Positions 35,551-63,428 of a DNA stretch of 64,000 bases are shown here, in pieces. The stretch lies in assembly GCA_028875225.1 (NCBI GenBank), contig JAPPFB010000003.1, positions 62,001 through 126,000 on the forward strand, read 5' to 3'. The stretch is from Chloroflexota bacterium (GTDB lineage Bacteria > Chloroflexota > Dehalococcoidia > Bin125). Each line of letters begins with the position of its first letter. Position 1 is the stretch's first letter. A program made the position numbers and the translations under genes. The notes under the pieces were generated by a model. That model made no database searches. It saw only the letters and a program-made list of their open reading frames with translations, and was not told the origin of the DNA.

Positions 35551-37299
35551 GTGCAGATCCGTCAGCTCGACATTAGGCACTTCCGCGGGTTTCGTTCACT
35601 CAGCGTCAAGCCTTCTGGTCATGTGCTCCTCATTGGTCAGCCGCGTGCCGGTCGTTCAGATGTCGTGGAGGCCTTGACCCGGGTCCTCGACCCTGACTCC
35701 ACAAGAGTGACCCTTGTGGGGGACCTGGACTTTTTCAGCCGGGACACTTCAATGCGCGCGGAGGTAGAAGTCGTCCTGGGTGATCTGGGCGCGGAGCTTG
35801 AACAGAGATTCTTCGACCAGATCGAGTTTTGGGACTCAGACAGTCACTGCCTACTTGCCCCAACTGGTCCTGGCGAGCAGATCCCCGGAACTAGCGAGCC
35901 GGTGGTTCGTCTCTGCTACCGAGCTGAGTGGCAAGAGGAAGAGCATGCCGCCGATCATTGGGTGGACTTCCCGAAGTTCTCAGTTCCGGAAACTGGCGAC
36001 TTCGCCAGGGTCTCGCGTACGAACCGTGCTGCGTTGCCCTTTGAGCGAATAGGCTCGTCCGGCAACCCACTCCGGTTGAATCCAAGGTCTGCATTTCGGA
36101 ACGTTCTATCACTGGTAGAAGGGGACGACTTCCCTGAGACCTTGGAGGCAGTAATCGAGGACATTCGCACCGCGTCAGATCATCTCACCGATAGCTCTCA
36201 AGTGCAGGCAGCTCTGCTCGAAGTTTTCCGCGATGTCGCGCTCCCGCTGCGTTTAGGTGACCGACCGCCGAGCGACCACGTCAGTTTCGTTCCCGACGAC
36301 GGTTCAATGGCCTCACTTCTCCGTTCCTTCAGCTCCAACGTTGATTTGGGCGACGAGGTTGGACAGTTGCCTTTGAGTCGGCATGGATCGACGACTCAAG
36401 CGCTCATTGCAACTGGTGAGGCACTGGCAGCGACCAAGAATGGTGTCGACCTCATCGTCGTCGATGACTTCGGAGAGGGAATGGATGCTGCATCTGCAGG
36501 CTTCGCGGCACAGATGTTGCGAAAATCGACGAGTCAAGCCTGGGTTTCGACGAGAAGAGCCTCCGTTGCGGAAGGATTTCGAGCCTCGGAGATCGTGCGG
36601 CTGACTAGGGCCGATGACTCACTGCGGACAGCCTTTCGGGGAACTGAACCGACCAGCAAAGCCGAGCGCTTGGCAGCGCGCCACACGACGCTTCAGCTCT
36701 TGCCAGCGCTCGCAGCGCGGGCACTCATCATTGTTGAGGGACCTCACGATCACGCCGCATATCAGGCACTGGCTGCGAAACTATACGAGGAGGAGGGAAT
36801 CCACCCACCTGGAGCACATGGAGTGCACCTAATCCATGCCGGAGCAGCAGATTCATCCGGTGGTTCGGGGGCGATTCCCCGCCTAGCTGACGCTGCCAGA
36901 GCACTCGGATTCCGTGTGGCTTGTGTGATCGATTACGACGGAGAGGATGCACAAACACAGGAAGAGCTGCGCGCGAATCTCAATGCGGCTGATGCTGTCG
37001 TGCGGCTGCCGCATAGGGTGGCCATCGAACGTGCGCTGGTCAGCGGTGTACCAAGTACAACGCTACGAAACGTCCTTGTCGACTTGAATTCGGCATTTGG
37101 CTTGTCGATAGACGTTGCCGCGGCAACTGATCCAGACCTCGAGAAGTTAGCTGTGCGGATGCTGAAGTTGTCAGGAGGCCTTCACGCTCAGTTTGTCCAG
37201 GCCCTGCCATTCAGATGTTCCCCGGCGATTGCCCATCAAGTGCTGGAGAAAAGCCTCCTGGCCGCAATAGGTAGGTTGCAGGGACATCAGCAGTTATGA
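35551..37299 (+). CDS. Gabija-like nuclease GajA: OLD-family ATPase plus TOPRIM
   Basis: A 582-residue OLD-family protein. The N-terminus is ABC/SMC-type (MQIRQLDIRHFRGFRSLSV) with a P-loop position reading GQPRAGRS at residues 29-36, in which Arg replaces the invariant Lys. The Walker B segment is VDLIVVDDFGEGMDA near residue 300. A C-terminal TOPRIM domain has LIIVEGPHD (Glu near 396) and ACVIDYDGED (DxD near 461). It overlaps by ATGA a UvrD-type helicase, the GajA-GajB order of Gabija phage-defence systems. GajA is known as a DNA-nicking endonuclease regulated by nucleotides. Start GTG has AGGAG five bases upstream. Confidence 0.8.
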   Translation: MQIRQLDIRHFRGFRSLSVKPSGHVLLIGQPRAGRSDVVEALTRVLDPDSTRVTLVGDLDFFSRDTSMRAEVEVVLGDLGAELEQRFFDQIEFWDSDSHCLLAPTGPGEQIPGTSEPVVRLCYRAEWQEEEHAADHWVDFPKFSVPETGDFARVSRTNRAALPFERIGSSGNPLRLNPRSAFRNVLSLVEGDDFPETLEAVIEDIRTASDHLTDSSQVQAALLEVFRDVALPLRLGDRPPSDHVSFVPDDGSMASLLRSFSSNVDLGDEVGQLPLSRHGSTTQALIATGEALAATKNGVDLIVVDDFGEGMDAASAGFAAQMLRKSTSQAWVSTRRASVAEGFRASEIVRLTRADDSLRTAFRGTEPTSKAERLAARHTTLQLLPALAARALIIVEGPHDHAAYQALAAKLYEEEGIHPPGAHGVHLIHAGAADSSGGSGAIPRLADAARALGFRVACVIDYDGEDAQTQEELRANLNAADAVVRLPHRVAIERALVSGVPSTTLRNVLVDLNSAFGLSIDVAAATDPDLEKLAVRMLKLSGGLHAQFVQALPFRCSPAIAHQVLEKSLLAAIGRLQGHQQL

Positions 37300-38918
37300 A
37301 CCTCGAAGATCTGTCACCCCAGCAAGCGGCAGTCGCTTCGGCCACTGGTTCCCCGATTCTTGTCCTAGGGGGCGCAGGGACTGGCAAGACCACAGCCGCA
37401 TTGTGGGCAGCGCACGCAGCGATAGAACGAGGAGAGATCGGAGCGCACCAGAAAGTGCTGTTCCTGACTTTCTCGCGAACCGCCGTGACTCAGATTGCAG
37501 CGAGAGCCCGAGGGAGGCTCGGCGGGGTCAGGCAGGACATCGAGATTTCCACATTCCATGCATTCAGCTTTCGGATTCTTCAGGATTTCGGGAGATACAG
37601 TGGTTTCGGCCCCTCACTTCCCAAGGTTCAGTCAGCTGCTCGCAACAAACTGATGGGGGCAGACCCTACCGTCTACTCATACGACGAACTTATCCCAAGG
37701 GCGATTCGGGTGCTGGAGGGTGAGGCAATCAGTGCGATAGTCGCCAGGCGGTGGCCCCTAGTGATCTGCGATGAATTTCAGGACACAAGCACGGATCAGT
37801 TACAGCTGCTAGACCTACTCGCTAACCACGCACGGCAAATTCTCCTCGCCGATCCGAATCAGATGATTTACACCTTTGTGCCCGGCGTCAGCCCCGAACG
37901 GCTTGAGAATGCTCGTCAACGGGCCCAGACAGTCATCGATCTACAGCCGGACTCGTACCGGGACCCAAGCGGATGTATCCCTGCGATGGCCGAAGCGATT
38001 CGACAGCGCAATTTCTCGTCGCCTGAGATAAGTCGAGCCATTGAGCTCAATGCGCTTGCCGTGAGGAGCGACGTGCCTGACGATTCTGTCATGGATGAAT
38101 TGGACTACGAGTTGGGTGTTGCGAGGGAGCTAGGAATGAGTTCAGTCGGAATATTCGCCCATTCAAATGAGAGCGTGGCAGGTCTTGGCACCCAACTCAC
38201 CAATCATGGTGTAGAGCATTCTCTCGTAGGTCTCCCAGAGGCTCAGGGTGAAGCACTAGCCGCCCTATCCGCTCTCGTCGAGTTCGGCGCCGGGAACCGA
38301 GACGCCTCTGGCTTGCACCAGGCTCTAGCCACTTTTCTGACGGCCTGCACTCGGGGTCGGAGGCCTCCAGATGTTGCAAGCGGCTTGGCATTCGGAGAAC
38401 CAGCATTGCCCGCCGCGTTCTTCGTGCGACTTCAAGACATCGAAGAGAGCCTCGTGAGGTCATCCGATGAAGGACTCGAGGCGCTGATCAAGACAGCTTG
38501 CGGCGCGTGGCAGAGGCTCGCGCTTGGGAGCGGCAACAGGCCATGGCAGGTGTCGGCTCAACGATTCGCTGCGATTGCTCAGAGAGTGGCAGGATCTGGA
38601 GAGCCGAAAGCCGTTCTAATCGAGAGACTAGTAGCGCAAGTCGACAGAGAGCGAACTGCTGTCCTAGTTGGCAATGACTACCTCGAGCAACACCCTGTCC
38701 AGATTATGAACTTCCACCAAACCAAGGGACGCGAGGTGGATCAGGTCATCCTCATCTATCGCTCAGGGGACTACCTGGCAGACCATCGTGCTGGCGAGCC
38801 ATTTGTTGAGGCGTCACGTGTGCTATACGTCGCTCTGACACGTGCCAGAAAGCGAGTGGTCGTGGTGCTTCCCCCCGAGCCACATGATCTTGTTGCCCCT
38901 TTAGCCAGTCTCAGCTGA
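37296..38918 (+). CDS. Gabija-like helicase GajB: UvrD/PcrA-type
   Basis: A 540-residue superfamily 1A helicase. Q motif and Walker A are LSPQQAAVASATGSPILVLG and GGAGTGKT (residues 25-32). Walker B is VICDEFQDTS near 155-164, motif III DPNQMIYTF, motif V MNFHQTKGREVDQVIL near 470, and motif VI RVLYVALTRARKRVVVVL. It is shorter than housekeeping UvrD (about 720 residues), as expected of GajB. In Gabija it senses DNA ends and works with GajA. Its start overlaps the nuclease stop, so the subunits are made together. Confidence 0.82.
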   Translation: MNLEDLSPQQAAVASATGSPILVLGGAGTGKTTAALWAAHAAIERGEIGAHQKVLFLTFSRTAVTQIAARARGRLGGVRQDIEISTFHAFSFRILQDFGRYSGFGPSLPKVQSAARNKLMGADPTVYSYDELIPRAIRVLEGEAISAIVARRWPLVICDEFQDTSTDQLQLLDLLANHARQILLADPNQMIYTFVPGVSPERLENARQRAQTVIDLQPDSYRDPSGCIPAMAEAIRQRNFSSPEISRAIELNALAVRSDVPDDSVMDELDYELGVARELGMSSVGIFAHSNESVAGLGTQLTNHGVEHSLVGLPEAQGEALAALSALVEFGAGNRDASGLHQALATFLTACTRGRRPPDVASGLAFGEPALPAAFFVRLQDIEESLVRSSDEGLEALIKTACGAWQRLALGSGNRPWQVSAQRFAAIAQRVAGSGEPKAVLIERLVAQVDRERTAVLVGNDYLEQHPVQIMNFHQTKGREVDQVILIYRSGDYLADHRAGEPFVEASRVLYVALTRARKRVVVVLPPEPHDLVAPLASLS

Positions 38919-39507: not shown

Positions 39508-39744
39508 TTGTCCCCTGAAACGGACAGCGGCCTTAGTCTGCACGAGTCGCCTTTCATGCGTCGACGAACGGCAGTGCGCCGAGGGAAGAGTCCAACTGCA
39601 GACCGAGAAGAGCCGAGGCAGCCCGGATCGCCACGTTCTATTCGCAGGGATCCAGCGGATCATGGTTGATTTGGGCAGGGAGGGTCTCGTCGATAGACCG
39701 CACATGTCGCCTCCATCGGTGTCGACTTGGAGAGAGTGATTGCC

Positions 39745-42072
39745 ATGAGCCTCCTACGACTGGTCATGCGGGTACTGGGTTTAGATTCGGTCCCGCCAAG
39801 CCCGATTGACGCTCCAAAGGAGCGGGAATCCTCCAGCACGAATGGGCACAGGGCAGCCTCAGAATCGAAGAGGTCAACTCGTTTTGAGAGCGTTTCTCCG
39901 AGGGGACGCACGCAGCGCTCCACTACACAGGCCCCAAGGCGGAAGCGAAGTCCGGCCGTCAAGCGAGATGCAACTTGGGTTCAGCCGGAGGAGGCAGTCG
40001 AGGTACAAGGACGCCGAATCACCGACGGGATGGTCTACGTCGGCTCCGGCCTACGCGGCATCTCGCGATACGTGGAGATTGAACCGGCCCTGATTGATCC
40101 CACACTCCCGGTCGCAGACCGTCATCCAGACATCGAAGGCCAATACATGGGATATTGGCCGTCCTACAGCGATATTCCCTACAACTCCCGCGCCGCATAT
40201 CTGGACTGGCTGGCGGCGGGCCGACCTGCTGGTGCGTACATCGGCTATGTCTTTCTGTTCTTCTATGGGATTGAACGGCGCGTCCTCTTCGACCTTGATC
40301 GCACGGACCTAGGCGGCGACGAGAGTCGAGAACTAATCGCGGAGGTCGAGCGGCTTCTCGCCCTGTACGGAGAGAACAACTCATTCAAGGGTTACGCCGG
40401 CGAGTTTCTCTCAGTCGTCAACTGCCTGCGCTCTGATCTCGATTTCGCACACTTGGAGCCCCCACAGGAGCGCAGAAGCTGGGAGTTACCACTTGAGCTG
40501 AAGCTCGGACTGGGATCGCTCGTGGCGTCGGGGGACCCAGTATCGGCGCCTTGGGCGCTCTCCTGGCTGCGCCTGCACCCGGAGACGTCCTTGAGAACAC
40601 CCGCCGTACGGTGCGAAGCGGAGTTTGATGAACTCTTCCAACTCCGATATCAACAGCGCCACGGCTCCGGGATTGCCATTCGCCGAAACAAGACCACGCT
40701 GTCCCACGCATATCGACCCGCCAGCGCGAGCTTTGGCTCTCAGGTGACGATTCGGGCTGAAGATGTCCCTGATGTCAGTCGACTGAAACGGCCTGTGCGG
40801 CAATTGCAGGAGCTTGCCGAAGTGGCGACTGAGGAGCTCGATTCGTTCAGTCGATGGGTTGGCAAGCACAAGGAGCGAGACAGTCTTGGAGCGATCGCCC
40901 TGTTGCCGAAAGAGCTCGCAAGCAAGCGTCAAACTGAGGATCTTGACGAGCTTAGGGGGCGAGTTCAGGCAGCGTTGAGCCAAGGCGAAGTCGCAACTGT
41001 GCCGGTCGAAAGCCTCATAACAGGCTTTCCAAGCCAGCGAGCAGGGACATTCACCGCCAAGGAAGCAACCTCCTTCGCCCAACTGCTCGAAAGCCAAGGC
41101 ATCGGGATCACCCCTGACATTCGCTACTCGAATGTCAATCCTACGAAGCACCAACATGCGGCGGTGTTTCGGCTCGATGCGGAGGACGTTGAACCGAGCG
41201 AGCGCTATCAGGCAGCCACAGTGCTGCTCCAGCTAGGTGCTGCAGTGAGCGCTGCCGACGGGACCGTTAGCGCCGAAGAAGAGAGATTGCTGGAAGCTCA
41301 CCTGGAGGAGTCGCTGCACTTGTCTTCGGCCGATCGGACTCGGCTGCGTGCCTACCTGCAATGGCTTCTCGTGGAGCCTCCCACGCTGGCTCGCATGAAG
41401 TCCCGCATGGCCGCCCTCTCTGCTTCGGAACGGAGCCAAGTTGCCCGTTTCGCTATCACAATCGCGGGCGCCGATGGCGTCGTCAGCTCTGATGAGGTCA
41501 AGGTGCTGAATCGCGTCTACAAACTCCTCGGGCTCGAAGACGACCAACTTCATCGAGACATTCACGATCTGGCTTCGACGCCGCCAACCCAACCCGTGAC
41601 AGTGCTGCGGCCGGATGAGCCCACGGGCCACAGGATTCCGCCGCCGCCAGCGCAAGGTCGTGACCCTGAAATCGTAGAACTTGATCAAGAGAAGATCATG
41701 GCGATCATGAATGACACTCGCGAAGTGGCCAGGATCCTGACAAACATCTTCGAAGGCCCAGCGGAACCGGAACTAGCGGAGGAAGACGAAGACGATGCTG
41801 ACGTGGAGGACCTAGTGCCGACCACAGCGGAGATCGCCGGCGGGCTGCTTGATCCTGCCCATGCAGAACTCGTTCGCTTCCTGGCCTCGCGACAGAACTG
41901 GCCGCGGAGCGAGGTTGAGGAAGCATCGACCAAACTCGGACTCATGCCTGCGGGCGCGATAGAAGCCATCAATGAGGCTGCATTCGCGCTTTGCGACGAT
42001 CCACTGATCGAAGGACACGACCCGCTGGAAATGAATGAGTACGCCCTGAAGGAGTTGCTCAATGACAACTAG
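39745..42072 (+). CDS. TerB-domain protein, SngA-like (Shango-type defence)
   Basis: About 775 residues from ATG 39745; the frame opens at TTG 39727. After a basic, Ser-rich linker a TerB-N-type domain (YVGSGLRGISRYVEIEPALIDP, GYWPSYSDIPYNSRAAYLDWLAAGR) spans residues of about 90-330. A TerB-like helical domain with metal-binding acidic repeats follows (SAADGTVSAEEERLL and GADGVVSSDEVKVL). A TerB-C-type region lies at the C-terminus after an acidic linker. TerB, DUF2791-type ATPase and Lhr-like helicase in this order is the composition reported for Shango phage-defence systems. The stop lies inside the start of the ATPase gene. Confidence 0.8.
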   Translation: MSLLRLVMRVLGLDSVPPSPIDAPKERESSSTNGHRAASESKRSTRFESVSPRGRTQRSTTQAPRRKRSPAVKRDATWVQPEEAVEVQGRRITDGMVYVGSGLRGISRYVEIEPALIDPTLPVADRHPDIEGQYMGYWPSYSDIPYNSRAAYLDWLAAGRPAGAYIGYVFLFFYGIERRVLFDLDRTDLGGDESRELIAEVERLLALYGENNSFKGYAGEFLSVVNCLRSDLDFAHLEPPQERRSWELPLELKLGLGSLVASGDPVSAPWALSWLRLHPETSLRTPAVRCEAEFDELFQLRYQQRHGSGIAIRRNKTTLSHAYRPASASFGSQVTIRAEDVPDVSRLKRPVRQLQELAEVATEELDSFSRWVGKHKERDSLGAIALLPKELASKRQTEDLDELRGRVQAALSQGEVATVPVESLITGFPSQRAGTFTAKEATSFAQLLESQGIGITPDIRYSNVNPTKHQHAAVFRLDAEDVEPSERYQAATVLLQLGAAVSAADGTVSAEEERLLEAHLEESLHLSSADRTRLRAYLQWLLVEPPTLARMKSRMAALSASERSQVARFAITIAGADGVVSSDEVKVLNRVYKLLGLEDDQLHRDIHDLASTPPTQPVTVLRPDEPTGHRIPPPPAQGRDPEIVELDQEKIMAIMNDTREVARILTNIFEGPAEPELAEEDEDDADVEDLVPTTAEIAGGLLDPAHAELVRFLASRQNWPRSEVEEASTKLGLMPAGAIEAINEAAFALCDDPLIEGHDPLEMNEYALKELLNDN

Positions 42073-43384
42073 CTCGAGGATTCGCCCGAGGGACCGAGAT
42101 GCGATCCTGCAGTCGCTTGCCGCCGGAGTGGTGCCGCGTCGAGGCCTCCAGCATGTGCAGGTTGGGCGCGCGCAGGAGGTCTCGGCCCTGCTGCGGGACC
42201 TGGAGCGCGTCGTGGACGGCGGGTCCGCTATTCGCTTCGTGATTGGTGAGTACGGCAGCGGCAAGAGCTTCTTTCTGCACCTGATCCGCTCCACCGCGCT
42301 GGAGAAGCAGATGGTCACTATGCACGGCGACCTCACGCCTGATCGCCGAATCTTCGCGACGGGCGGACAGGGCAGGAGTCTGTACACCGAGTTGGCGAGG
42401 AACCTTAGTACGCGATCGCATCCCGACGGCGGGGGATTGCAGTCGGTCGTCGAGCGGTTCATCGGTGAGGCGCACAAGACGGCACGCGAGTCGGGTGAGG
42501 AGACCGAGTCCGTCATCCGTGAGCACCTGCTGGAGCTATCTGAGCTGGTTGGCGGCTACGATTTCGCCGACGTTGTCGCGGCCTATTGGCGCGGGCACGA
42601 CGAGGGCAACGCCGATCTGCAGAACTCGGCCGTTCGCTGGCTGCGCGGCGAGTATTCGACCAAAACAGACGCTCGCCGAGATCTTGGCGTCAGAACGATC
42701 ATCGACGACGGCAACATCTACGACATGCTCAAGTTGCTGGCCCGGTTCGTGCGCCTGGCCGGCTACGGCGGCTTGATCGTCGCCTTCGATGAGATGGTGA
42801 ATCTCTACAAGCTGGCGAACACTCGGGCGCGGAATAGCAACTATGAGCAGATCCTCAGGATTCTGAACGATTGCCTCCAGGGCTCCGTGGCGAATCTTGG
42901 CTTCCTCATGGCCGGCACTCCCGAGTTTCTGACGGATACACGCCGGGGCTTGTACAGCTATGAAGCCCTCCAGAGTCGACTAAGCGAAAACATGTTTGCG
43001 TCGGCCGGAGTTCGTGACTTTTCGGGTCCAGTCTTGCGTCTGGCAAACCTCAGTCCTGAAGAGCTGTTCGTTGTTCTGACCAAGCTCCGACACGTCCACG
43101 CCGGAGGGGACGAGCATGAGTACGCGCTGCCCGATGAGGCGCTGCATGCCTTCATGGAGCACTGCTCACAGAACGTTGGCGAGGCCTACTTCCAGACGCC
43201 CCGAAACTCGATTCGCGCTTTCGTCCAGTTGCTCAGAGTCTTAGAGCAGAATCCTTCGACATCATGGAGCGAGTTGGTAGCGGCGGTCAGCATCGGGCCA
43301 GATTCCGACTCAGCAGTGACGGGCGAGCCGATACCACCTCCGGTCGACCCAGCCGATGACGAGCTCGTCACCCTGCGCCTATAG
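42062..43384 (+). CDS. P-loop ATPase, BrxD/DUF2791-like, SngB-like
   Basis: A 440-residue ATPase. Walker A is GEYGSGKS at residues 62-69 and Walker B is GGLIVAFDEMVNLY near 240. FLMAGTPEFLTDTRRGLYSYEALQSRL is the characteristic region following sensor 1 in the DUF2791/BrxD group. The 'RRGLQHVQVGRAQEVSALLRDL' start is also typical. This family appears as BrxD in BREX type 2 and in Shango; the TerB neighbour and the lack of PglX/PglZ favour Shango. It overlaps the upstream gene by 11 bases. Confidence 0.85.
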   Translation: MTTSSRIRPRDRDAILQSLAAGVVPRRGLQHVQVGRAQEVSALLRDLERVVDGGSAIRFVIGEYGSGKSFFLHLIRSTALEKQMVTMHGDLTPDRRIFATGGQGRSLYTELARNLSTRSHPDGGGLQSVVERFIGEAHKTARESGEETESVIREHLLELSELVGGYDFADVVAAYWRGHDEGNADLQNSAVRWLRGEYSTKTDARRDLGVRTIIDDGNIYDMLKLLARFVRLAGYGGLIVAFDEMVNLYKLANTRARNSNYEQILRILNDCLQGSVANLGFLMAGTPEFLTDTRRGLYSYEALQSRLSENMFASAGVRDFSGPVLRLANLSPEELFVVLTKLRHVHAGGDEHEYALPDEALHAFMEHCSQNVGEAYFQTPRNSIRAFVQLLRVLEQNPSTSWSELVAAVSIGPDSDSAVTGEPIPPPVDPADDELVTLRL

Positions 43385-43407
43385 GGAGCTGTCAGGCAAG
43401 AGCGTTC

Positions 43408-45621
43408 ATGAGCGAATCGAGATCCGCGGCATTCGACCTGCTGGCGGAGCCTGTTCAACGCTGGGTCTGGCGGCAACGTTGGCCATCGCTGCATGACATT
43501 CAGGAGCGGGCCGTCAGGCCGATCCTGGAGGGCAACGATGTTCTGATTTCTTCGGCAACGGCCTCCGGGAAGACGGAGGCGGCGTTCCTGCCAATCTGCA
43601 GCGCTCTCGAGGACACCGCTACAACCGCACTTGGGGTCCTGTACATCGCCCCGCTCAAGGCGCTGATCAACGATCAGCGGATTCGGCTGGAATCCCTGTT
43701 CGATGTGATCGACGGGCCCGTGACACCTTGGCACGGTGATATCGCCGCTCACGTCAAGCGGCGACTGGTTGAGCGACCACGGGGCGCACTGCTGATCACT
43801 CCGGAGTCGCTTGAGGCCCTCTTCGTGACCCGCGGCACCGCAATGCCGGGGCTCGCTCAACATCTGCGATTCATCGTGGTCGACGAGTTGCACGCCTTTA
43901 TCGGAACTGAGCGTGGACGTCAGCTTCAGTCTCTGATGCACCGCCTCGAGCTTGCGGCAGGTAGGCCAATTGCTCGCATCGGGCTATCCGCGACCTTGGG
44001 CGACACCGACTTAGCTGCGGAGTTTCTGCGACCAAGACGCGGTGTTGAGGTCAAGCAGATCACATCTACGGCGCAGGGCCGCGAAGTCAAGCTGCAGGTC
44101 CGGGGCTACATTCAACAACGCTCCCAAGCGCCAGTCCAGGCGGGGCAAGCCAGCGACAACTCCGACGAGGAGATGGAAGAGCTAGCCGCGAGCGACGATA
44201 TCGACATCGCTCAGCATCTCTTCAGGACGCTCCGAGGTACGACCAACCTTGCCTTTGCAAATCGTCGCTCCGACGTCGAACTTTATGCCGACCTACTGAG
44301 GCGCCTCGCAGACCAAGGAAACCTGCCGAACGAGTTCTTTCCCCATCACGGCTCACTCTCCCGGGACATCCGCGAGGACGCGGAGGACCGCCTCAGGGGA
44401 CCGCGACCAACGACGGTGGTCGCAACGACAACGCTTGAGATGGGCATCGACATCGGCAGCGTCGATTCGATCGCACAGATCGGACCGCCGAGCTCAGTCG
44501 CGTCGCTCAAGCAGCGCCTCGGGCGATCGGGGCGGACAGCCGACGCGCCGTCCATCATCCGCATCTACATCCAAGAAGAGGAAATCAACGAGAACTCTTC
44601 CGTGCCTAGTCAGTTGCGCATCTCGCTCGTCCAGACGGTCGCGATGATCCGGCTCTTAGTGCAGGGCTGGGTCGAGCCTCCTCCCGAGATGGCCCTCCAT
44701 CTGTCTACGCTCGTGCAGCAACTACTCTCATTGATCGCCCAGCATGGCGGAGTCCGTGCTGCCGACGCCTTCCACGCGCTGTGCGCTACCGGTCCCTTTG
44801 CCTCAGTCGAGCGGCCAACGTTTGCGCAGCTGCTTCGTGATCTCGCCAGTCATGAACTCATCACGCAGACCCATGATGGGACGATCGTTCTCGATCTGGG
44901 CGGTGAACGCCTCGTCAATCACTACGACTTCTACGCTGCGTTTAGTTCGCCAGACGAGTGGCGTCTCGTCTCGGGAACGCGCACGCTCGGAACCTTGCCG
45001 GTGACATATCCGCTGGTCATCGATTCATTTGTCACATTCGCGGGACGCCGGTGGAAGGTGATGTCGGTTGACGAGGAACGCCGAGTGGCCGAGTTGACGC
45101 CCGCCGCGGGTGGCCGGGTTCCGTGGTTCGTCAATGGTGGCGCCTTGATTCACGATCGGGTTCGACAGGAGATGCGCCGGGTCTACTTGGACAGCGATAT
45201 GCCCTCCTTCCTCGATGCGAATGGACGAGAACTCCTCGCCGAGGCTCGTTCGACCTTCCGCCGAATGGAACTCGATAGGCACTTCCTGTTGCCCCAAGGA
45301 CGCAACACCTGGGTCTTCCCATGGGTGGGCGACCGGGCACTCAACACCCTGGGATTGCTGTTTCTGTCGAAGCGACTCGAGTTCGTCCCCTATGGACCTA
45401 CCATCTACCTCGCTGATATGTCTGCCGAGTTCGCGCAAAAGGTAGCGAAGGAACTTGCATCGCTCGGCAGGCCGGATCTTGAGGGGCTCGCCACTGACAT
45501 CCGCAACAAACGGACAGAAAAGCACCACTGGTACTTGAGCGACGAGTTGCTGGGCAAGGACTATGCATCGAGTCGGTTGGACGTTGATAGGGCTTGGGAA
45601 GTCGTTCAGGCACTGACGTAG
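43408..45621 (+). CDS. Lhr-like DEAD/DEAH helicase, SngC-like
   Basis: A 737-residue superfamily 2 helicase. Motifs in order: Q-like WPSLHDIQERAVRPIL, Walker A SSATASGKTEAAF (residues 48-60), IAPLKALINDQ (Ia), DELHAF (motif II as DELH), IGLSATLGD (III), THLEMGIDIG-like TTLEMGIDIG (V) and LKQRLGRSGR (VI). The C-terminal third is the Lhr-type extension. The same helicase type is BrxHI in BREX type 2 and the helicase of Shango. It follows the ATPase after 23 bases and closes the operon. Confidence 0.85.
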   Translation: MSESRSAAFDLLAEPVQRWVWRQRWPSLHDIQERAVRPILEGNDVLISSATASGKTEAAFLPICSALEDTATTALGVLYIAPLKALINDQRIRLESLFDVIDGPVTPWHGDIAAHVKRRLVERPRGALLITPESLEALFVTRGTAMPGLAQHLRFIVVDELHAFIGTERGRQLQSLMHRLELAAGRPIARIGLSATLGDTDLAAEFLRPRRGVEVKQITSTAQGREVKLQVRGYIQQRSQAPVQAGQASDNSDEEMEELAASDDIDIAQHLFRTLRGTTNLAFANRRSDVELYADLLRRLADQGNLPNEFFPHHGSLSRDIREDAEDRLRGPRPTTVVATTTLEMGIDIGSVDSIAQIGPPSSVASLKQRLGRSGRTADAPSIIRIYIQEEEINENSSVPSQLRISLVQTVAMIRLLVQGWVEPPPEMALHLSTLVQQLLSLIAQHGGVRAADAFHALCATGPFASVERPTFAQLLRDLASHELITQTHDGTIVLDLGGERLVNHYDFYAAFSSPDEWRLVSGTRTLGTLPVTYPLVIDSFVTFAGRRWKVMSVDEERRVAELTPAAGGRVPWFVNGGALIHDRVRQEMRRVYLDSDMPSFLDANGRELLAEARSTFRRMELDRHFLLPQGRNTWVFPWVGDRALNTLGLLFLSKRLEFVPYGPTIYLADMSAEFAQKVAKELASLGRPDLEGLATDIRNKRTEKHHWYLSDELLGKDYASSRLDVDRAWEVVQALT

Positions 45622-45937: not shown

Positions 45938-47434
45938 CTAAACCACGACCACCGTTCCACCATCCTCGGACACCACCGCTGCCACCGCCGTTCTCACTCC
46001 CCGGTTTGCATTGATATACCGCACCGCCGAGTTATAGCGCGCCCCCCGGGAACGATCGCCTTCCGTAGTTGCCTGACCATCCAAGATCATGCCAATCCCG
46101 TGCAACACCCCATCCGGATCAAAGAGCAGGGCACCGTCTATGGGGGTCAAATGTTTCAACATCTCTTTGTCCACCTTGCGTGGGACGATACAGTTGCCCT
46201 GCGACGATAGTCTCTCCGCTTCCTCCGCCGCTGCTAAAGATACAACTACCATTGTACCACTTGTTTCCTCACTTGCCGCTTGCACCAACGCTGTGATCAT
46301 CTCCACCTTTTCGTCATCCAGGTTGCCGAACGCCTGTGATAGCGCCTTTCGCAGCTCCTCCTCAACAGAATTGGCAGCCGGCAACGACGGGATGCCGTCC
46401 CGGACATTCATTAGCAGTTTGTTGTCGTGACTCAGGCTCCACCGTCGATCGCCCTCGATATGTACAACATACAAATCTTCACCCTCAGCATCGTACTCGT
46501 CAAGTCCAACAAGCCCAAAGACATTTGTACCATCGCAGTGAAGGACCATGGTCTCCGACGAGAGTTCGAGCAGCTTTCGGACACCTCGCAAATCTCGAAG
46601 TTCAATCGGCTCGACAAGAGACACTTCCGAACGCAGAGCGTTGTGGGACGTGCTCGCCAAGACTAGACGACCTTCGCCCACGGCGCCTTCGTAACGCAAC
46701 GTGGACAGCGAGCAACAAGTATCAAACAGGTCACTTGCAGGACCAGCTGTAGTACCATGTACCCGCCACAACGCGCCTTCTGCCAGCCGTTGGCCAGCTC
46801 TGCGCAGCATTGGTGGGATGGAGGCAAACAAGATGATATCCGGATTCTGTTTGCCAAGCTCCTGATTCGCACATTCAAACAGTTCTTGTGCGACCGCGTC
46901 CACCAGTGACGTCCGGACATTATAGATTAAGTCCTCACCCACGGTGACTTCCTTGGTCTGCAGGCAATGGTGCTCGTGCGAGGAAGCAACCGTTAGGAAC
47001 AAGACTACGCATGCAAAGTGTCCGAAGGAGTTTGTTGGGGGAGCAACAAAGAACTGCAAATCGCTGGGCTTGTCGGGGTGTTCGTCCAAACGTGCCGTAA
47101 CCTCTGCCTTCAGGGCCTGGTGAAAGAGTTTCTTTTGGTTGGCGGCTGCATATGCTTCGTCGGGATACTGGTACGAGTACCGCGGGTCCGCTTGCGCATC
47201 TAGTGACGCCTTCTTGTGGAGGTCGGCAAAAGTGCTGTCATCCAACCATGCGAGCCTATGCGAGGGTGAATGAACATGCAGTTGTGGAATTGTCTCTAGA
47301 TTCTCAGGAAGTTGGATGAGTAAGCAATCTGCGTCGTCAATGTCAGCTATTGTCCGAAAGAGTCTGATGGCAGTGTCCGCAACGGAGTGGAGAAACAAAG
47401 GGACATTGTCCCAGACAACGTGATAGGCCGTCAT
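45938..47434 (-). CDS. DAC-domain (diadenylate cyclase-like) protein with N-terminal sensor region
   Basis: A 498-residue protein. The C-terminal 140 residues fit a DisA_N/DAC nucleotidyl cyclase: PIDGALLFDPDGVLHGIGMI supplies the DGA motif near residue 430, and SRGARYNSAVRYI near 462 sits where c-di-AMP cyclases carry GTRHRAA, followed by AVAAVVSEDGGTVVV (the 'iVVSEEtG' strand). DAC proteins condense two ATP to c-di-AMP; this branch changes RHR to RYN, so product and activity are open. Residues 1-300 form an unrecognised sensor-like region. Codon use is visibly less GC-rich than its neighbours, implying recent transfer. It stands alone. Confidence 0.7.
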   Translation of the reverse strand: MTAYHVVWDNVPLFLHSVADTAIRLFRTIADIDDADCLLIQLPENLETIPQLHVHSPSHRLAWLDDSTFADLHKKASLDAQADPRYSYQYPDEAYAAANQKKLFHQALKAEVTARLDEHPDKPSDLQFFVAPPTNSFGHFACVVLFLTVASSHEHHCLQTKEVTVGEDLIYNVRTSLVDAVAQELFECANQELGKQNPDIILFASIPPMLRRAGQRLAEGALWRVHGTTAGPASDLFDTCCSLSTLRYEGAVGEGRLVLASTSHNALRSEVSLVEPIELRDLRGVRKLLELSSETMVLHCDGTNVFGLVGLDEYDAEGEDLYVVHIEGDRRWSLSHDNKLLMNVRDGIPSLPAANSVEEELRKALSQAFGNLDDEKVEMITALVQAASEETSGTMVVVSLAAAEEAERLSSQGNCIVPRKVDKEMLKHLTPIDGALLFDPDGVLHGIGMILDGQATTEGDRSRGARYNSAVRYINANRGVRTAVAAVVSEDGGTVVVV

Positions 47435-48398: not shown

Positions 48399-49073
48399 CT
48401 AGGCCGACGGGGACACTGTCGCGTTGTAGCGCCCGAGCAACGCATTGAGGTACAGCGCGCCCATGACGGAGTCGAGCGAGCGCTCCACTGAGTCCAACGG
48501 CAAGCCCTCCGTGAGCTCGATCAAGCTCCCCTCAGGGCAGCGGTCGGCAAAGAACAGGTAGGAGAATCCGTCGGGCTCCTGCCGTGAGGGCCAGGTCAAG
48601 CCGCAAGCCGTAGGCGCCCACGTTCGGATCGCCGAGGCCCATTTGCGGGTGAGATGGTAGTCCTCTGCAGGGGATTGGATGAGCCACGTATCCTGCCCGA
48701 TCTGGGCCAAATCTTCCCGAGAGCGCAAGTTCACGAGCTCGAGTTCCTCGCTGTTGAACAACCAGCCGATTCGCTTTCCCTTGAGCTGGGCGCGGGGCAA
48801 CATGCTGGCGCTGTCGCCGTCAAGAGAAACGTCCCGCAGCAACGCCTCACAGAAAGCGGTTGGATCGTCGCTCGCCGCATAGAGGAATGCATAGGGGTCG
48901 GAGGGAATCGAGTCGAATCGGCCGCCTTGGAAATCGGATGTCGCGAATCGGGGATTGAACTCGGTGACCCGATACTGCGCACTATGGATGCGCGTCAGGT
49001 GACTGCCCTGGCGCAGCGTCCAGAGCCGCGGTTCGCCGCTCAACTCGGTCGGGGGTTCGCACTTGGGCGACAA
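48399..49073 (-). CDS. RES-domain toxin (NAD+ phosphorylase type)
   Basis: A 224-residue RES-domain protein. The signature stretch is YRVTEFNPRFATSDFQGGRF then AFLYAASDDPTAFCEALLRDV, with the Arg and Glu that shape the NAD+-binding pocket in RES toxins. The later LVNLRSREDLAQIGQ and TRKWASAIRTWAPTACGLTWPSR segments also fit. RES toxins such as MbcT degrade NAD+ by phosphorolysis and stop growth. It starts at TTG six bases after the stop of an Xre/MbcA-like antitoxin, giving the standard antitoxin-first order. Confidence 0.8.
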   Translation of the reverse strand: MSPKCEPPTELSGEPRLWTLRQGSHLTRIHSAQYRVTEFNPRFATSDFQGGRFDSIPSDPYAFLYAASDDPTAFCEALLRDVSLDGDSASMLPRAQLKGKRIGWLFNSEELELVNLRSREDLAQIGQDTWLIQSPAEDYHLTRKWASAIRTWAPTACGLTWPSRQEPDGFSYLFFADRCPEGSLIELTEGLPLDSVERSLDSVMGALYLNALLGRYNATVSPSA

Positions 49074-49079
49074 GGGCCG

Positions 49080-49808
49080 CTACCCGATCGGCTCGAACAG
49101 CGCGTCCGCGACCTCAGGCAACTGATAGCTTCGAGCGGTGCCCACCAGATCCATCGGTCGAGCGCCCAATCGATCGTGATGTCCAACCCACCAGGAGGCC
49201 ACGCCCCAAGGATCCCCGAGCGCATCGAGACGGCGGTTCAGCTCCTCTACCTCTGGGAAGATCCGGCGCCGCTCACGGTCAAACTGAAACTGCGGATAGA
49301 GGAACCGGGCACCCTGCGGCAGGCCCAGCAACGCCGACCGCAATCGCTCTTGCCGCACCCGCTCTCGATTGTCCGGTTTCGACCCCAGCGCTTCGGCTGC
49401 GGCGCCGGAGTTCAACATCGATTCACGCCAGACTGCTTGTATGACCTGGCCTTGGATCCTGGCTTGGTCGACGACGGCACTCATCAGCTGGTGATGCACA
49501 ACGCGGGGCTCACTCCCGAGCTGCCTGGCGATCTCGCCGCTCGACGTAAGCATCGTCATCCAACCGCGCGCATCCTGCTCGGATCCTTGCCAATCGGGAT
49601 GCCGCGCCACCATCGTCGCCGCAAGGTCAAGCAGGGCCGTCGCGCCCTGCGGCGACCACTTCGGCAACGCAGCAGCGCCGAGCGGCCGTCCGTCCCAGGC
49701 GGAGGCCGCCAACTCCAACCACGTCTGCCAATGCTCCAACTCACTGTTGTCGGCGGCCGACTCGGCCGTTTCGCGTAGCAACTCTTGAATCTGCTTTTCG
49801 ATCACCAT
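49080..49808 (-). CDS. MbcA/ParS/Xre-type antitoxin
   Basis: A 242-residue protein. The N-terminal 100 residues are helical and unrecognised. The middle contains GAAAEALGSKPDNRERVRQERLRSALLGLP, then a strand-rich linker (ARFLYPQFQF) and PEVEELNRRLDALGDPWGVASWWVGHHDRLGARPMDLVG. That last part is the C-terminal toxin-binding domain of MbcA/Xre-type antitoxins, which ends in 'W...p...L.gr.P.dll'. It should bind and mask the RES toxin encoded just downstream and repress the operon. GGAGA lies upstream of the ATG. Confidence 0.75.
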   Translation of the reverse strand: MVIEKQIQELLRETAESAADNSELEHWQTWLELAASAWDGRPLGAAALPKWSPQGATALLDLAATMVARHPDWQGSEQDARGWMTMLTSSGEIARQLGSEPRVVHHQLMSAVVDQARIQGQVIQAVWRESMLNSGAAAEALGSKPDNRERVRQERLRSALLGLPQGARFLYPQFQFDRERRRIFPEVEELNRRLDALGDPWGVASWWVGHHDRLGARPMDLVGTARSYQLPEVADALFEPIG

Positions 49809-56741: not shown

Positions 56742-57558
56742 GGTCAGGTCCTGGCGTCAAGCGCAGCTCCGGCGATCGGGATGATTGCAGGCAGCGTTTC
56801 GAATCGATAACACATTGTTGACGTCATCTCAGGCTGTCTCGCTCAGCGTTGCGAGCATATCCCGGTGGCCGACTTAGCTCGTCAGCGTTGAGAGTCCGAC
56901 CTTCCTGCTTCGCAAAAGGTCTCGGCGCGACAGAGCTCTCTTGTGCAAGAAAATGACCTACTCGCTTGAGCCTTGGGGACTGTGCTGTACCTGCTCGCCG
57001 CAGGGGCTCGGGACGGACCCTGAGTAAAGCCATCAGCATGGTGGCCCTAGGCGGGTGCTTGCGGGGTCAAGGGCGGCTCGCTCCCGCGTGGTCTTATCGA
57101 ACAGCGGAAGCGTGTACAGTAGAGCCGCGTCGGCCAGTAGATTGGTCCGGCAGGGTAGGTAGCCCTTCGGCATGCAACTGGGCGGCGGCTTGCCCGATAT
57201 CGCTGTCGCGCCTGTGCTGCCTCGCCCAGTAGACCGTTATCCGCAATCCATCGTCTTGACCACTCGCTCACGCTCACACAGTTCAGGAATCAGCGGTCAC
57301 ATGACTCCCCGAGCGGCCTGAGTCTTGACCAGTCTCGAAGTACTAGTGTCCTGCTTCCTCTCGGGGAAGACCGAAATCGGTCAGCAGAGTCTCAGCGCTC
57401 ACCCACTCCGTCCTTCCGTCCCACAGAATGCGCACCGACTTCCGCTTGCACGCGCCCCAGACTGCGACTTGCTTAGGCTGCCCAATATTTCTCCTCCACA
57501 TTGCCCCTGTGAAATCCCCCCATACAATGCACTCCACATACGTCGAAGGGGGCCGCCA
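56742..57558. other. Leader of the TIR-like ATPase gene
   Basis: About 815 bases without a supported gene. A plus-strand frame is continuous with the ATPase gene from 57325, but its first 78 codons are unlike protein and the ATG at 57559 has AAGGGGG upstream. Promoter unknown. Confidence 0.4.
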
Positions 57559-60009
57559 ATGAGTCGCGCTGGACGAACCGGCAAAGGCCGCCACTCCAAA
57601 CGCCAGAGGCGCCGCAAGACCCCCACCAGGAGAGTCTTCTATGCCTATCCTGCCGATCCTCCCGATCTCGCGGAAACGATAGCGGAGGCGATCGCTGAGA
57701 TACGGACCACAACACGAGCCCGCGGCATGAACCTCGAGTTCACTCCCTGGCCTGACCTTCACGTCTCTGGCAAGAACCTACTCCAGCAGATCACTGCTGC
57801 GATCGACCGCAGTGATGTCGTAGCGTTCGACGTGACGCTTCCAAACTGCAACGTTGCCTTCGAGCTGGGATATGCGGTATCCCAGCATAAGCCAGTATGG
57901 CTCTCGTTGAATCCCAGCTTCTCTACTGCCCAGGCGAACTTTAGGTTACAGTATACTCACATCCTCAACGCTGGCTACCACGAGTACAACAATCATATTG
58001 ACCTTTCAGATGCGCTGTATGGCGACGCTCCCTGGGACAATCTCGACGACTTGCTGCTTCCAACAGAGCATACAAGGCGACCATTGCGTTCCGAGCACTC
58101 ATCCCTCTTGCATTTGAAGCCACCCACTACCACGTCGGCAGTGATCAAGGTTTCCGAGTATTTGATGTCAAGTCGTTACGCCACTTCAATAGCGGTTGAT
58201 GATCCCATCGACAACAGTGATGCACCCTTAAGCTGGTATGTGGAGAACATTCAAGAAGCCGACGCGGTTCTCGTTCACCTGCTTAGCGACAATCACACCC
58301 ACGCTGATCGCCACAATGCGAAAGCATCGTTCGTTGCTGGACTCGCTCACGGCATGAGCAAACAGCTCTTGATGGTCGCACACGAACCGTTTAAGTGCCC
58401 GACGGACTACCAAGGGCTGCTTCGCTCCCATAGCACAGCGAGCTCAAGTGTTGAGTTTGTTCGCGAGTGGATCGATTCTTTGGAAGTACCCTATCGCCGA
58501 CGGAGAAGAACAACGCAAGAGAGGCCGAAGTCGACGATCAACATCGAACTACGCGATCTGTCGCTCGGCGAGCCTGTTGCCGAAAATGAACGATGGACGC
58601 TCGATAGGTACTTTGTCGAGACCGAGCCATTTTACCGAGCTCAGGAAGCGCCCTTGTCGATCTTTGTTGGCCGCCGCGGCAGTGGTAAGACTGCAACCCT
58701 ATACGCCTTGGATGATGTGTTTCGGACTAACCGCCGAGTGCACGTCTGCACGGTCCAGCCGGTCGGTTACGAGCTAGGGGGCTTGATCGCGCTATTGAAT
58801 GAGGCGTGGCAGGTGGCCCAGAGGGGTTTCTTGATTGAGAGCCTGTGGAAGTTTCTCTTGTACACGGAGATTGCGAACAGTGTAGCTAGCGACATCAAGA
58901 ACAGGCCAGCGCACATTTCGCCGACGGAATCCGAGGCACGGCTCCTGGACTACTTGCAACCCTATGAGCGCGTGATGCTTGTTCCGTTTTCTGAACGTGT
59001 CAATGAGGCCGTTGGAGCGCTGTCGGCTTCGGGAGTGGATAGCAGCGCGAGACAACAGCGTCTGCGCATAAGCGAGCACCTCCATAAGAGCTATATTGGA
59101 CAGTTGGAGCGCCGGCTCCACGATGTGTTCGACGAAAAGGACAAAGTGCTAGTATTGATCGACAAGCTAGATGATCGATGGGGAGTAGGATCCGATGTTG
59201 ACATTCAAGCGATGCTTCTGCGGGGTCTGATCGATGTTGCACAGAGTATTGTGGATGCATTTCAAGGACGGCAAAGGGAGGCGCCGGATTCCAAACTATC
59301 CTTGGTGATGTTCATCAGGAGCGACATCTTCTCGCATCTTGGACTCGTATCAGCTGAGCTTGACAAACTGCCTGTGCGGCGGATCGCATGGAGCGATACA
59401 GAAGAGCTAATGGGAGTGCTCGACCAGAGGTTGGTCCATAGGGGTACGGCCGAGTTGAATGCTCTTGCGGTATGGGAGAAGCTGTTCGAACAGGTGGAGG
59501 GGACTCGGGCTAGGGACTTCATCCAAACCAGATCATTGCCTCGACCTCGGGACATCTTGGTTTTCGCGAGAGAGGCTGTGTCCACCGCCATTAGGCGTGG
59601 AAGTGACAGAGTGAGGTCCACCGATCTTGTGTCGGCTTATCAAGCATATTCTCGAAGCGCATTTCAGTCCGTCCTTTTGGAGGAGAATCCTGAAGAGAGT
59701 CATTTGGAAGCAGTCTTGATCGAGCTCGCTGGCTCAAATGCGGAGCTGTCCGAGAAGGAGGCGTTAAGCAATATCGTATCTGCTGGAGTTCCGAAGGCTC
59801 GTGCAGAGGTCTATCTGGAGTTACTGTGCGACATCAATGTGCTAGGAGTTGTCAGCGATGCACGTGTTCAGTACCCACCCCACGAAGAGGCACGACGAAT
59901 ATTGTTGCAAAGGGAGAGAAGAGTTGCGAGACGAACCGGCGGGGATGGTGTGGGATTCGTAGTGCATCCGGCGTTCCATGACGTGTTGGGTATTCGAACG
60001 GAGACCTAA
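57559..60009 (+). CDS. Tandem TIR/deoxyribosyltransferase-like protein with P-loop ATPase
   Basis: An 816-residue protein. After a basic N-terminus, residues 25-120 form a TIR-like or nucleoside 2-deoxyribosyltransferase-like domain (VFYAYPADPPDLAETIAEAI and SDVVAFDVTLPNCNVAFELG with Glu102). Residues 195-310 look like a second, more divergent copy (VIKVSEYLMSSRYATSIAVD, NIQEADAVLVHLLSDN, ASFVAGLAHGMSKQLLMVAH). An ATPase follows with Walker A GRRGSGKT (371-378), Walker B VLVLIDKLDDRW, and sensor region MFIRSDIFSHLG, close to the 'Sll1717 family' P-loop ATPases. A winged-helix-like end follows. Likely NAD- or nucleotide-acting effector gated by the ATPase, by analogy with STAND defence proteins. 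Confidence 0.7.
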   Translation: MSRAGRTGKGRHSKRQRRRKTPTRRVFYAYPADPPDLAETIAEAIAEIRTTTRARGMNLEFTPWPDLHVSGKNLLQQITAAIDRSDVVAFDVTLPNCNVAFELGYAVSQHKPVWLSLNPSFSTAQANFRLQYTHILNAGYHEYNNHIDLSDALYGDAPWDNLDDLLLPTEHTRRPLRSEHSSLLHLKPPTTTSAVIKVSEYLMSSRYATSIAVDDPIDNSDAPLSWYVENIQEADAVLVHLLSDNHTHADRHNAKASFVAGLAHGMSKQLLMVAHEPFKCPTDYQGLLRSHSTASSSVEFVREWIDSLEVPYRRRRRTTQERPKSTINIELRDLSLGEPVAENERWTLDRYFVETEPFYRAQEAPLSIFVGRRGSGKTATLYALDDVFRTNRRVHVCTVQPVGYELGGLIALLNEAWQVAQRGFLIESLWKFLLYTEIANSVASDIKNRPAHISPTESEARLLDYLQPYERVMLVPFSERVNEAVGALSASGVDSSARQQRLRISEHLHKSYIGQLERRLHDVFDEKDKVLVLIDKLDDRWGVGSDVDIQAMLLRGLIDVAQSIVDAFQGRQREAPDSKLSLVMFIRSDIFSHLGLVSAELDKLPVRRIAWSDTEELMGVLDQRLVHRGTAELNALAVWEKLFEQVEGTRARDFIQTRSLPRPRDILVFAREAVSTAIRRGSDRVRSTDLVSAYQAYSRSAFQSVLLEENPEESHLEAVLIELAGSNAELSEKEALSNIVSAGVPKARAEVYLELLCDINVLGVVSDARVQYPPHEEARRILLQRERRVARRTGGDGVGFVVHPAFHDVLGIRTET

Positions 60010-62315: not shown

Positions 62316-63428
62316 ATGAACGACAGTGCTAACACTCCCATTCACGTCGCGTACTTGTTTGGTGCTGGTGCCTCACATGCTTGCGCAAAGAGCGGCGGAA
62401 GCCATCACGGTCTCCTCATGCGCGACCTCAACCCTCCTCTAAAGGCCCGCGTTCAGCAGCTCCTAGACCTAGAGTACGCTGACCACGACACTCTGAAGCA
62501 ACTAGTCAACACGATCATAGACGATGACACTGACTACGAACATGTAATCACGTTTCTCGACAACGCGCCGTCACTCATCCATCGGCAATTTGCCGACAAC
62601 TTACGGCAAATCTTTGAGGAGGTGCTCCGACAGAGGTTACTGGAAGTTAGGCAGGACTTGGATCGTAATCCTATCGATCTCTACACCGCCCTCTTCGACT
62701 TTCACAAAGTTGAAAATAACCGAGAGCATCTCAAGGGCATTTTGACGACTAACTACGATTCCTATGTGGAAGAGGCACTGCAGGCCGCGCACTTTGAATC
62801 AGTCTACATGGGCTTCGACCTGGGACTACCCAATCCTACTCCATCACAAGAGTCAATCACCGTGCTTAAGCTTCATGGCTCATTTGATTGGCAGGACACC
62901 TGGCCAATCGAAGTCGGTTCAGGGGAGCCTCCCTTATGGATTCCTCCAGGAATCCAAAAGGACAAGCAGCGCTATCCGTTCAATGCCATATGGGCGATCG
63001 CCAGGGAGGTGCTGGCGTGCGACATCCTGCGAATCATCGGCTGCAGGCTGGACGGCAACGACTGGGATCTCATCTCTCTCTTGTTCTCGACCATCCATGT
63101 CCAATCGTCCTATCGGCCCTATCAGGTCGAGATAATCGACTCTCCGCAGAACGCCAAGGTGATGGCAGAGACGTTGCCCTATCTACAGCCTCACTCAATG
63201 TTGGAGATAGACGAGATTGGCCGTCAGCTGGTGTCCGAATGGGGCGGCGGAGCGCCGCAAGACTTCAGCACGCTTAACTCCGAGAAGCAAGCTCAGTTGA
63301 TTACTCACGCCGGCAGCTCTCATAACTGGTTTGAAGTGTGGCTTCGCCAAAAGGCAGAGCTATTGTACAGTGACCTTGGAAGCCTAGATACAACAGCCGG
63401 AGCCATCAGGGCGTTCTTGGAGCAGTGA
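62316..63428 (+). CDS. SIR2-domain protein, probable NAD+ hydrolase
   Basis: A 370-residue SIR2-family protein. The NAD-binding GAGAS loop is at residues 16-20, TTNYD at 144-148 (Asn146) and KLHGS at 185-189 (His187, the catalytic position). A late RIIGCRLDGNDWDLISLLF closes the Rossmann fold, as in bacterial defence SIR2 (SIR2_2 type) proteins. There is no Cys zinc module, so deacetylase function is unlikely. Such proteins deplete NAD+ in Thoeris, DSR and SIR2-Argonaute systems. A DUF262 gene begins two bases after its stop, and an IS21 element lies just upstream. Codon use is less GC-rich than the core half. Confidence 0.85.
   Translation: MNDSANTPIHVAYLFGAGASHACAKSGGSHHGLLMRDLNPPLKARVQQLLDLEYADHDTLKQLVNTIIDDDTDYEHVITFLDNAPSLIHRQFADNLRQIFEEVLRQRLLEVRQDLDRNPIDLYTALFDFHKVENNREHLKGILTTNYDSYVEEALQAAHFESVYMGFDLGLPNPTPSQESITVLKLHGSFDWQDTWPIEVGSGEPPLWIPPGIQKDKQRYPFNAIWAIAREVLACDILRIIGCRLDGNDWDLISLLFSTIHVQSSYRPYQVEIIDSPQNAKVMAETLPYLQPHSMLEIDEIGRQLVSEWGGGAPQDFSTLNSEKQAQLITHAGSSHNWFEVWLRQKAELLYSDLGSLDTTAGAIRAFLEQ

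Follow-up and report, generated by a model that had tools for sequence, protein, structure and literature searches.

The closest described system to the gene analysed here is DS-2, which consists of a phospholipase, a CD-NTase and a diadenylate cyclase (DAC) and was validated as an anti-phage system in E. coli by the 2026 DefensePredictor paper (PMC13092281). The DAC is needed for phage defence by DS-2: two DAC mutants in predicted catalytic residues lose defence, and in the count given there 15/30 DAC homologues adjoin CBASS (PMC13092281). As cited in the same paper, both the association of the DAC with CBASS and the DACNG-DACNH-DAC architecture go back to Galperin 2023. The CBASS link of this DAC family is thus already published and is not new here. 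For canonical enzymes, replacement of the RHR motif by AAA in M. tuberculosis DisA/DacA abolishes ATP binding and activity (PMC3328451). In the literature we found no report of the product of the DS-2 DAC or of why CBASS needs two cyclases.

We analysed a solo member of this family in a 64,000-nucleotide stretch of Chloroflexota DNA, referred to below as the window. The gene is an intact open reading frame of 498 codons with an ATG start (Table 1). Its N-terminal region, described as large and unknown in a sequence-only reading of the same DNA, was assigned by Pfam to the probable sensor domains DACNG (60.4 bits) and DACNH (81.3 bits), both well over the gathering score of 27. That reading had also urged a comparison with the DACNG and DACNH families, rightly, the protein having the architecture DACNG-DACNH-DAC.

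Table 1. Positions in the window of the DACNG-DACNH-DAC gene, its domains and motifs, and members of the surrounding defence island.
Feature	Position	Strand	Basis
Gabija	35551-38918		island member
Shango SngABC	39727-45621	opposite to the DAC gene	island member
DACNG-DACNH-DAC protein, 498 aa, solo gene	45938..47434	-	ORF call; Pfam; NCBIfam NF053872, E=2.9e-95 (below cut-off); AlphaFold pLDDT 90.5
Divergent DAC domain, residues 352-498 (147 residues)	45941..46381	-	domain model pLDDT 86.2; PDB fold matches
SEDGG, residues 489-493, counterpart of SEETG	45956..45970	-	family conservation
RGARYNSA, residues 463-470, counterpart of GTRHRAA	46025..46048	-	hhalign and family conservation
DGA, residues 433-435, preceded by I (H in CdaA-type DACs)	46130..46138	-	family conservation
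DACNH, probable sensor domain, residues 235-337	46424..46732	-	PF21750, E=5.8e-23, above gathering score
DACNG, probable sensor domain, residues 8-217	46784..47413	-	PF21752, E=3.2e-16, above gathering score
RES-domain gene	48399-49073		Pfam
SIR2-like gene	62316-63428		island member

The nature of the C-terminal domain was assessed by structure prediction. An AlphaFold model of the full-length protein, built on a 49-sequence alignment (mean pLDDT 90.5, pTM 0.84), had DisA structures as its only confident matches in the PDB. With the domain modelled by itself, the top 41 PDB matches were all DACs (DisA, CdaA, DacA, CdaM, DacM and relatives), at probabilities of 0.94-1.00 and TMq values of 0.40-0.62, and the first match to a non-DAC structure came at E=1.3. 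TM-scores in this range are those of a model that keeps the DAC fold with considerable divergence. Searching the viral structure library with the model gave no confident match, and a PDB sequence search with the protein and its profile returned nothing useful. The Pfam DAC model (PF02457) was not matched by the window protein at E 0.1, and the same domain in relatives passes the PF02457 cut-off. Alignment by hhalign of the family profile to canonical DACs from this phylum gave E values of 0.002-0.006 with a probability of only 14 (at E 0.002), so that the fold match carries the weight of the DAC assignment. As far as the fold is concerned, the assignment made in the sequence-only reading held, both models having only solved DACs as confident matches.

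DGA and VVSEDGG (residues 487-493) are present, as had been read from the sequence. Profile alignments placed IDGA on HDGA, RGARYNSA on GTRHRAA and SEDGG on SEETG, and in this way confirmed the replacement of GTRHRAA read from the same sequence. In these alignments DGA corresponds to one half of the ATP site of DACs and RGARYN to the other; in the folded protein, both would face one site, the arrangement on which that reading had made its assignment depend. Across 49 non-redundant sequences, among which the counts for genome and viral relatives are biased because these were found partly through the RGARYN motif or a neighbouring motif, the invariant columns were D433 and G434 of DGA, R463, G464, R466 and N468 of RGARYN, and S489 and D491 of SEDG (49/49 each). 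The I preceding DGA was present in 48/49, canonical DACs of the phylum having HDGA; the E of SEDG was present in 46/49, and position 467 was Y or F only. Ten relatives had been found independently of the motif: tblastn gave seven plasmid proteins, the DACNH model two genomes and blastn one E. coli locus. In these, RG[AS]R was present in 10/10 and N in 9/10. Because the motif is fixed across bacteria and archaea, R-G-[AS]-R-[YF]-N is, on this alignment evidence, the active site of the family rather than decay in one gene. The altered motif, previously taken as an oddity of the window gene, is accordingly common to a broad family.

That the replacement residues never vary speaks for a site that works and has perhaps been re-tooled; together with the DS-2 mutants in a homologue, it suggests that the window protein is catalytic. 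Alternatively, the protein might be a nucleotide sensor or pseudoenzyme, one that binds ATP or c-di-AMP at its DAC site and signals by a change of shape without catalysis. Such a role would fit this family, which has lost two residues (the H and the second R) of the RHR motif that DisA requires. The c-di-AMP might come from an ordinary CdaA with HDGA and GTRHRAA that the host genome also carries, as do most of the family-bearing genomes checked. On the other hand, far as these sequences have diverged, they retain the D, the E/D and an N that is new and invariant, and the catalytic mutants of the E. coli DS-2 DAC kill defence, although binding alone would also fit that result. We consider a non-catalytic protein rather unlikely. 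Since the set IDGA, RG[AS]R[YF]N and SEDG is fixed in genomes that mostly have a canonical DAC as well, the site seems to be kept for something specific.

We then compared the protein with the components of DS-2. Each of the three DS-2 genes has its own DS2 model in NCBIfam, and the model of the third gene (DS2_3_antiphage) matched residues 65-493 of the window protein with 319.8 bits against an equivalog cut-off of 630 bits; by this score, the protein is a homologue of the third DS-2 component rather than a member. The scan of genomes for further relatives used a seven-sequence alignment, an alignment of ten being too divergent, and the same scan with the window protein alone found no relatives. 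Relatives on plasmids, in viral sequences and in genomes were often neighbours of a CBASS cyclase. Six adjacencies to a CD-NTase occurred in 59 records, compared with about 0.02 expected by chance from SMODS counts, and most of these six relatives also have patatin, Cap15 or 4TM effectors. Patatin, CD-NTase and DAC genes stand together in Citrobacter and Gluconobacter; a CD-NTase, a Cap15-type effector and the DAC do so in an IMG/VR contig and in Allomuricauda (with an 8-base overlap in the latter); a Priestia relative is accompanied by a CD-NTase and a 4TM effector, and the G358 gene adjoins a CD-NTase. A match in Rhizobium (hit H55) was discarded, being an unannotated fragment that has no CBASS genes next to it. 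The E. coli DS-2 trio, annotated as anti-phage, is 84% identical to the Citrobacter trio. In Agrobacterium and Sinorhizobium, related loci with patatin and CD-NTase lack the DAC, which is therefore optional. Nothing closely related to the window gene was found in the phage and E. coli collections, E. coli having the DS-2 trio only.

Two of these loci have a noteworthy setting of their own. On the chromosome of E. coli strain 361 (locus L096, 5999-15676), the DS-2 trio adjoins a complete CBASS of the phospholipase-DncV-Cap2-Cap3 type, and the same stretch has a Panoptes-like pair, an mCpol gene with a neighbour of the Cap15 family, so that three cyclic-nucleotide systems lie in a row. On the IMG/VR contig (L013, 23-4076), a DUF3732/LmuB-like (Lamassu) gene ends ahead of the unit of CD-NTase, Cap15 effector and DAC, and recombinase-like genes come after it.

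In a 54-row tree, the window gene branched with solo genes from Desulfobacterota, Acidobacteria and Planctomycetes (96/93), and most CBASS-linked members fell in a separate group. Forcing it into the CBASS-linked group came close to rejection without reaching it (p-AU 0.052), and its placement outside that clade is thus supported and not decisive. A stricter constraint (p-AU 0.0002) was set aside because it also excluded further rows from the group. The branch of the window protein measured 1.93, compared with 0.55 in its nearest neighbours. The nearest relatives (L016, L017, L018, L019, L021 and L027) are solo genes with housekeeping neighbours where these could be read, including NAD synthase, FAD synthetase and IF-2; SMODS was not matched in any of their genomes.

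These data bear on the possibility that the gene belongs to a DS-2/CBASS system that has lost its CD-NTase and effector or has them elsewhere in the genome. The excess of CD-NTase adjacencies among sampled relatives and the published count of homologues beside CBASS both speak for it. However, a CD-NTase was not found in the host genome by Pfam SMODS or by a linked-CD-NTase model, the latter used without a positive control; the gene has no remnant of such partners near it, its score is half the DS2_3 cut-off, and its sister group is solo. A broken DS-2 or CBASS unit is, in our judgement, very unlikely.

The immediate surroundings of the gene are those of a solo gene, as the sequence-only reading had stated. 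The closest gene on the same strand lies 964 bp upstream, and all same-strand genes are too distant to share an operon with it. On one side it is flanked by the SngABC operon of Shango, whose helicase converges on it and ends 316 bp downstream, and on the other by the RES-domain gene. The flanking gaps were searched and hold no CBASS remnant, no partner-gene remnant and no frameshifted C-terminal tail. The window protein itself stops just past SEDGG (window 45938); many relatives add a C-terminal tail of about 85 aa. A promoter scan, which carries little weight in this organism, found no sigma-70-like site for the gene. We also considered whether the protein could be a component of Shango. This was rejected: among about 93 loci of relatives there were three weak SngC-like (helicase) matches and none to SngA or SngB, and the Shango genes are on the other strand, converging on the window gene.

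The defence island comprises positions 33405-64000 of the window. Two stretches from sister genomes are syntenic with the window up to 33,405, just past a conserved gene, and have no counterpart rightward of it. This break and the presence of Gabija, Shango, RES and SIR2-like genes bear out the earlier placement of the gene in a defence island; no tRNA was found in the window. The GC3 of the gene is 0.59, compared with 0.77-0.88 in the core half and 0.59-0.80 in island genes, and its RMS distance in codon use to the pooled island genes is 0.126, other island genes having 0.079-0.177. The claim that its codon use differs from both halves of the window hence stood for the core half only, the gene being within the spread of the island. 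Two further island genes deserve mention. A 242-aa unassigned gene directly upstream of the RES gene, on the same strand, looks like its partner in a pair of RES toxin-antitoxin type (48399-49808), and an uncharacterised protein of 894 aa (57325-60009, GC3 0.60) has a weak, sub-cut-off match to nucleoside deoxyribosyltransferase.

DACNH was present in 1/393 genomes of the class, that of the window only, and 14 further genomes of the genus lacked it, which makes the gene accessory in its genome; given the CdaA encoded there, it does not replace the housekeeping enzyme. That it is an ordinary housekeeping c-di-AMP synthase situated in the island by chance, as solo relatives in Hymenobacter, Pedobacter, cyanobacteria and Methanosarcinales amid ordinary chromosomal genes might suggest, is highly improbable in view of that CdaA and of its absence from those 14 genomes. 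In about 30 contigs of the Hymenobacter group (L024-L092), the gene is solo on the chromosome with recurring neighbours, a pattern suggestive of vertical transmission and of a function other than defence in this group. Nor is a defence function indicated by the solo relatives that lie outside defence islands.

All in all, we regard the window gene as probably encoding a solo, sensor-coupled synthase of a nucleotide second messenger that arrived with the Gabija/Shango/SIR2 defence island, a distant homologue of the DS-2 DAC with no CD-NTase partner. DACNG and/or DACNH would sense a cue and probably gate the DAC domain, which, through IDGA, RG[AS]R[YF]N and SEDG, would bind ATP or another NTP and most likely convert it to a dinucleotide signal acting on a receptor. 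The protein would work without a CD-NTase, and the gene would have entered the genome as an accessory gene with the island, where it may take some part in defence. Counting against this synthase are the loss of activity on RHR to AAA in DisA/DacA, set beside a family without the H and second R, and the position of the protein below PF02457, with a long branch and no C-terminal tail. More speculatively, and with appreciable doubt, the RYN site of the whole DACNG-DACNH-DAC family might yield something different from c-di-AMP (a different cyclic, a mixed or a linear dinucleotide); DS-2-type CBASS would then run on two signals, and solo members would form a separate pathway beside CdaA. With the second cyclase out of the picture, a solo member is a simpler protein in which to find the product and the cue of DACNG and DACNH.

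Compared with known systems, the window protein is a solo, divergent new member of a known family, little studied so far, with a published defence link. It shares both sensor domains, above curated cut-offs, and the C-terminal DAC fold with the DACNG-DACNH-DAC architecture, from which no excluding difference was found. With the third component of DS-2 it has in common the three-domain make-up and the RG[AS]R[YF]N motif; in contrast to DS-2, the gene has no adjoining phospholipase or CD-NTase, the protein has no C-terminal tail, and it clusters with solo genes. With canonical DACs (DisA, CdaA and CdaS; PF02457) it shares the fold, DGA, the first R of RHR and SE[ED]. It differs from them in the I that stands for H before DGA (CdaA type), in an A at the place of T, in the Y and N that take the places of H and the second R and turn RHR into RYN, and in a score that does not reach PF02457 gathering.
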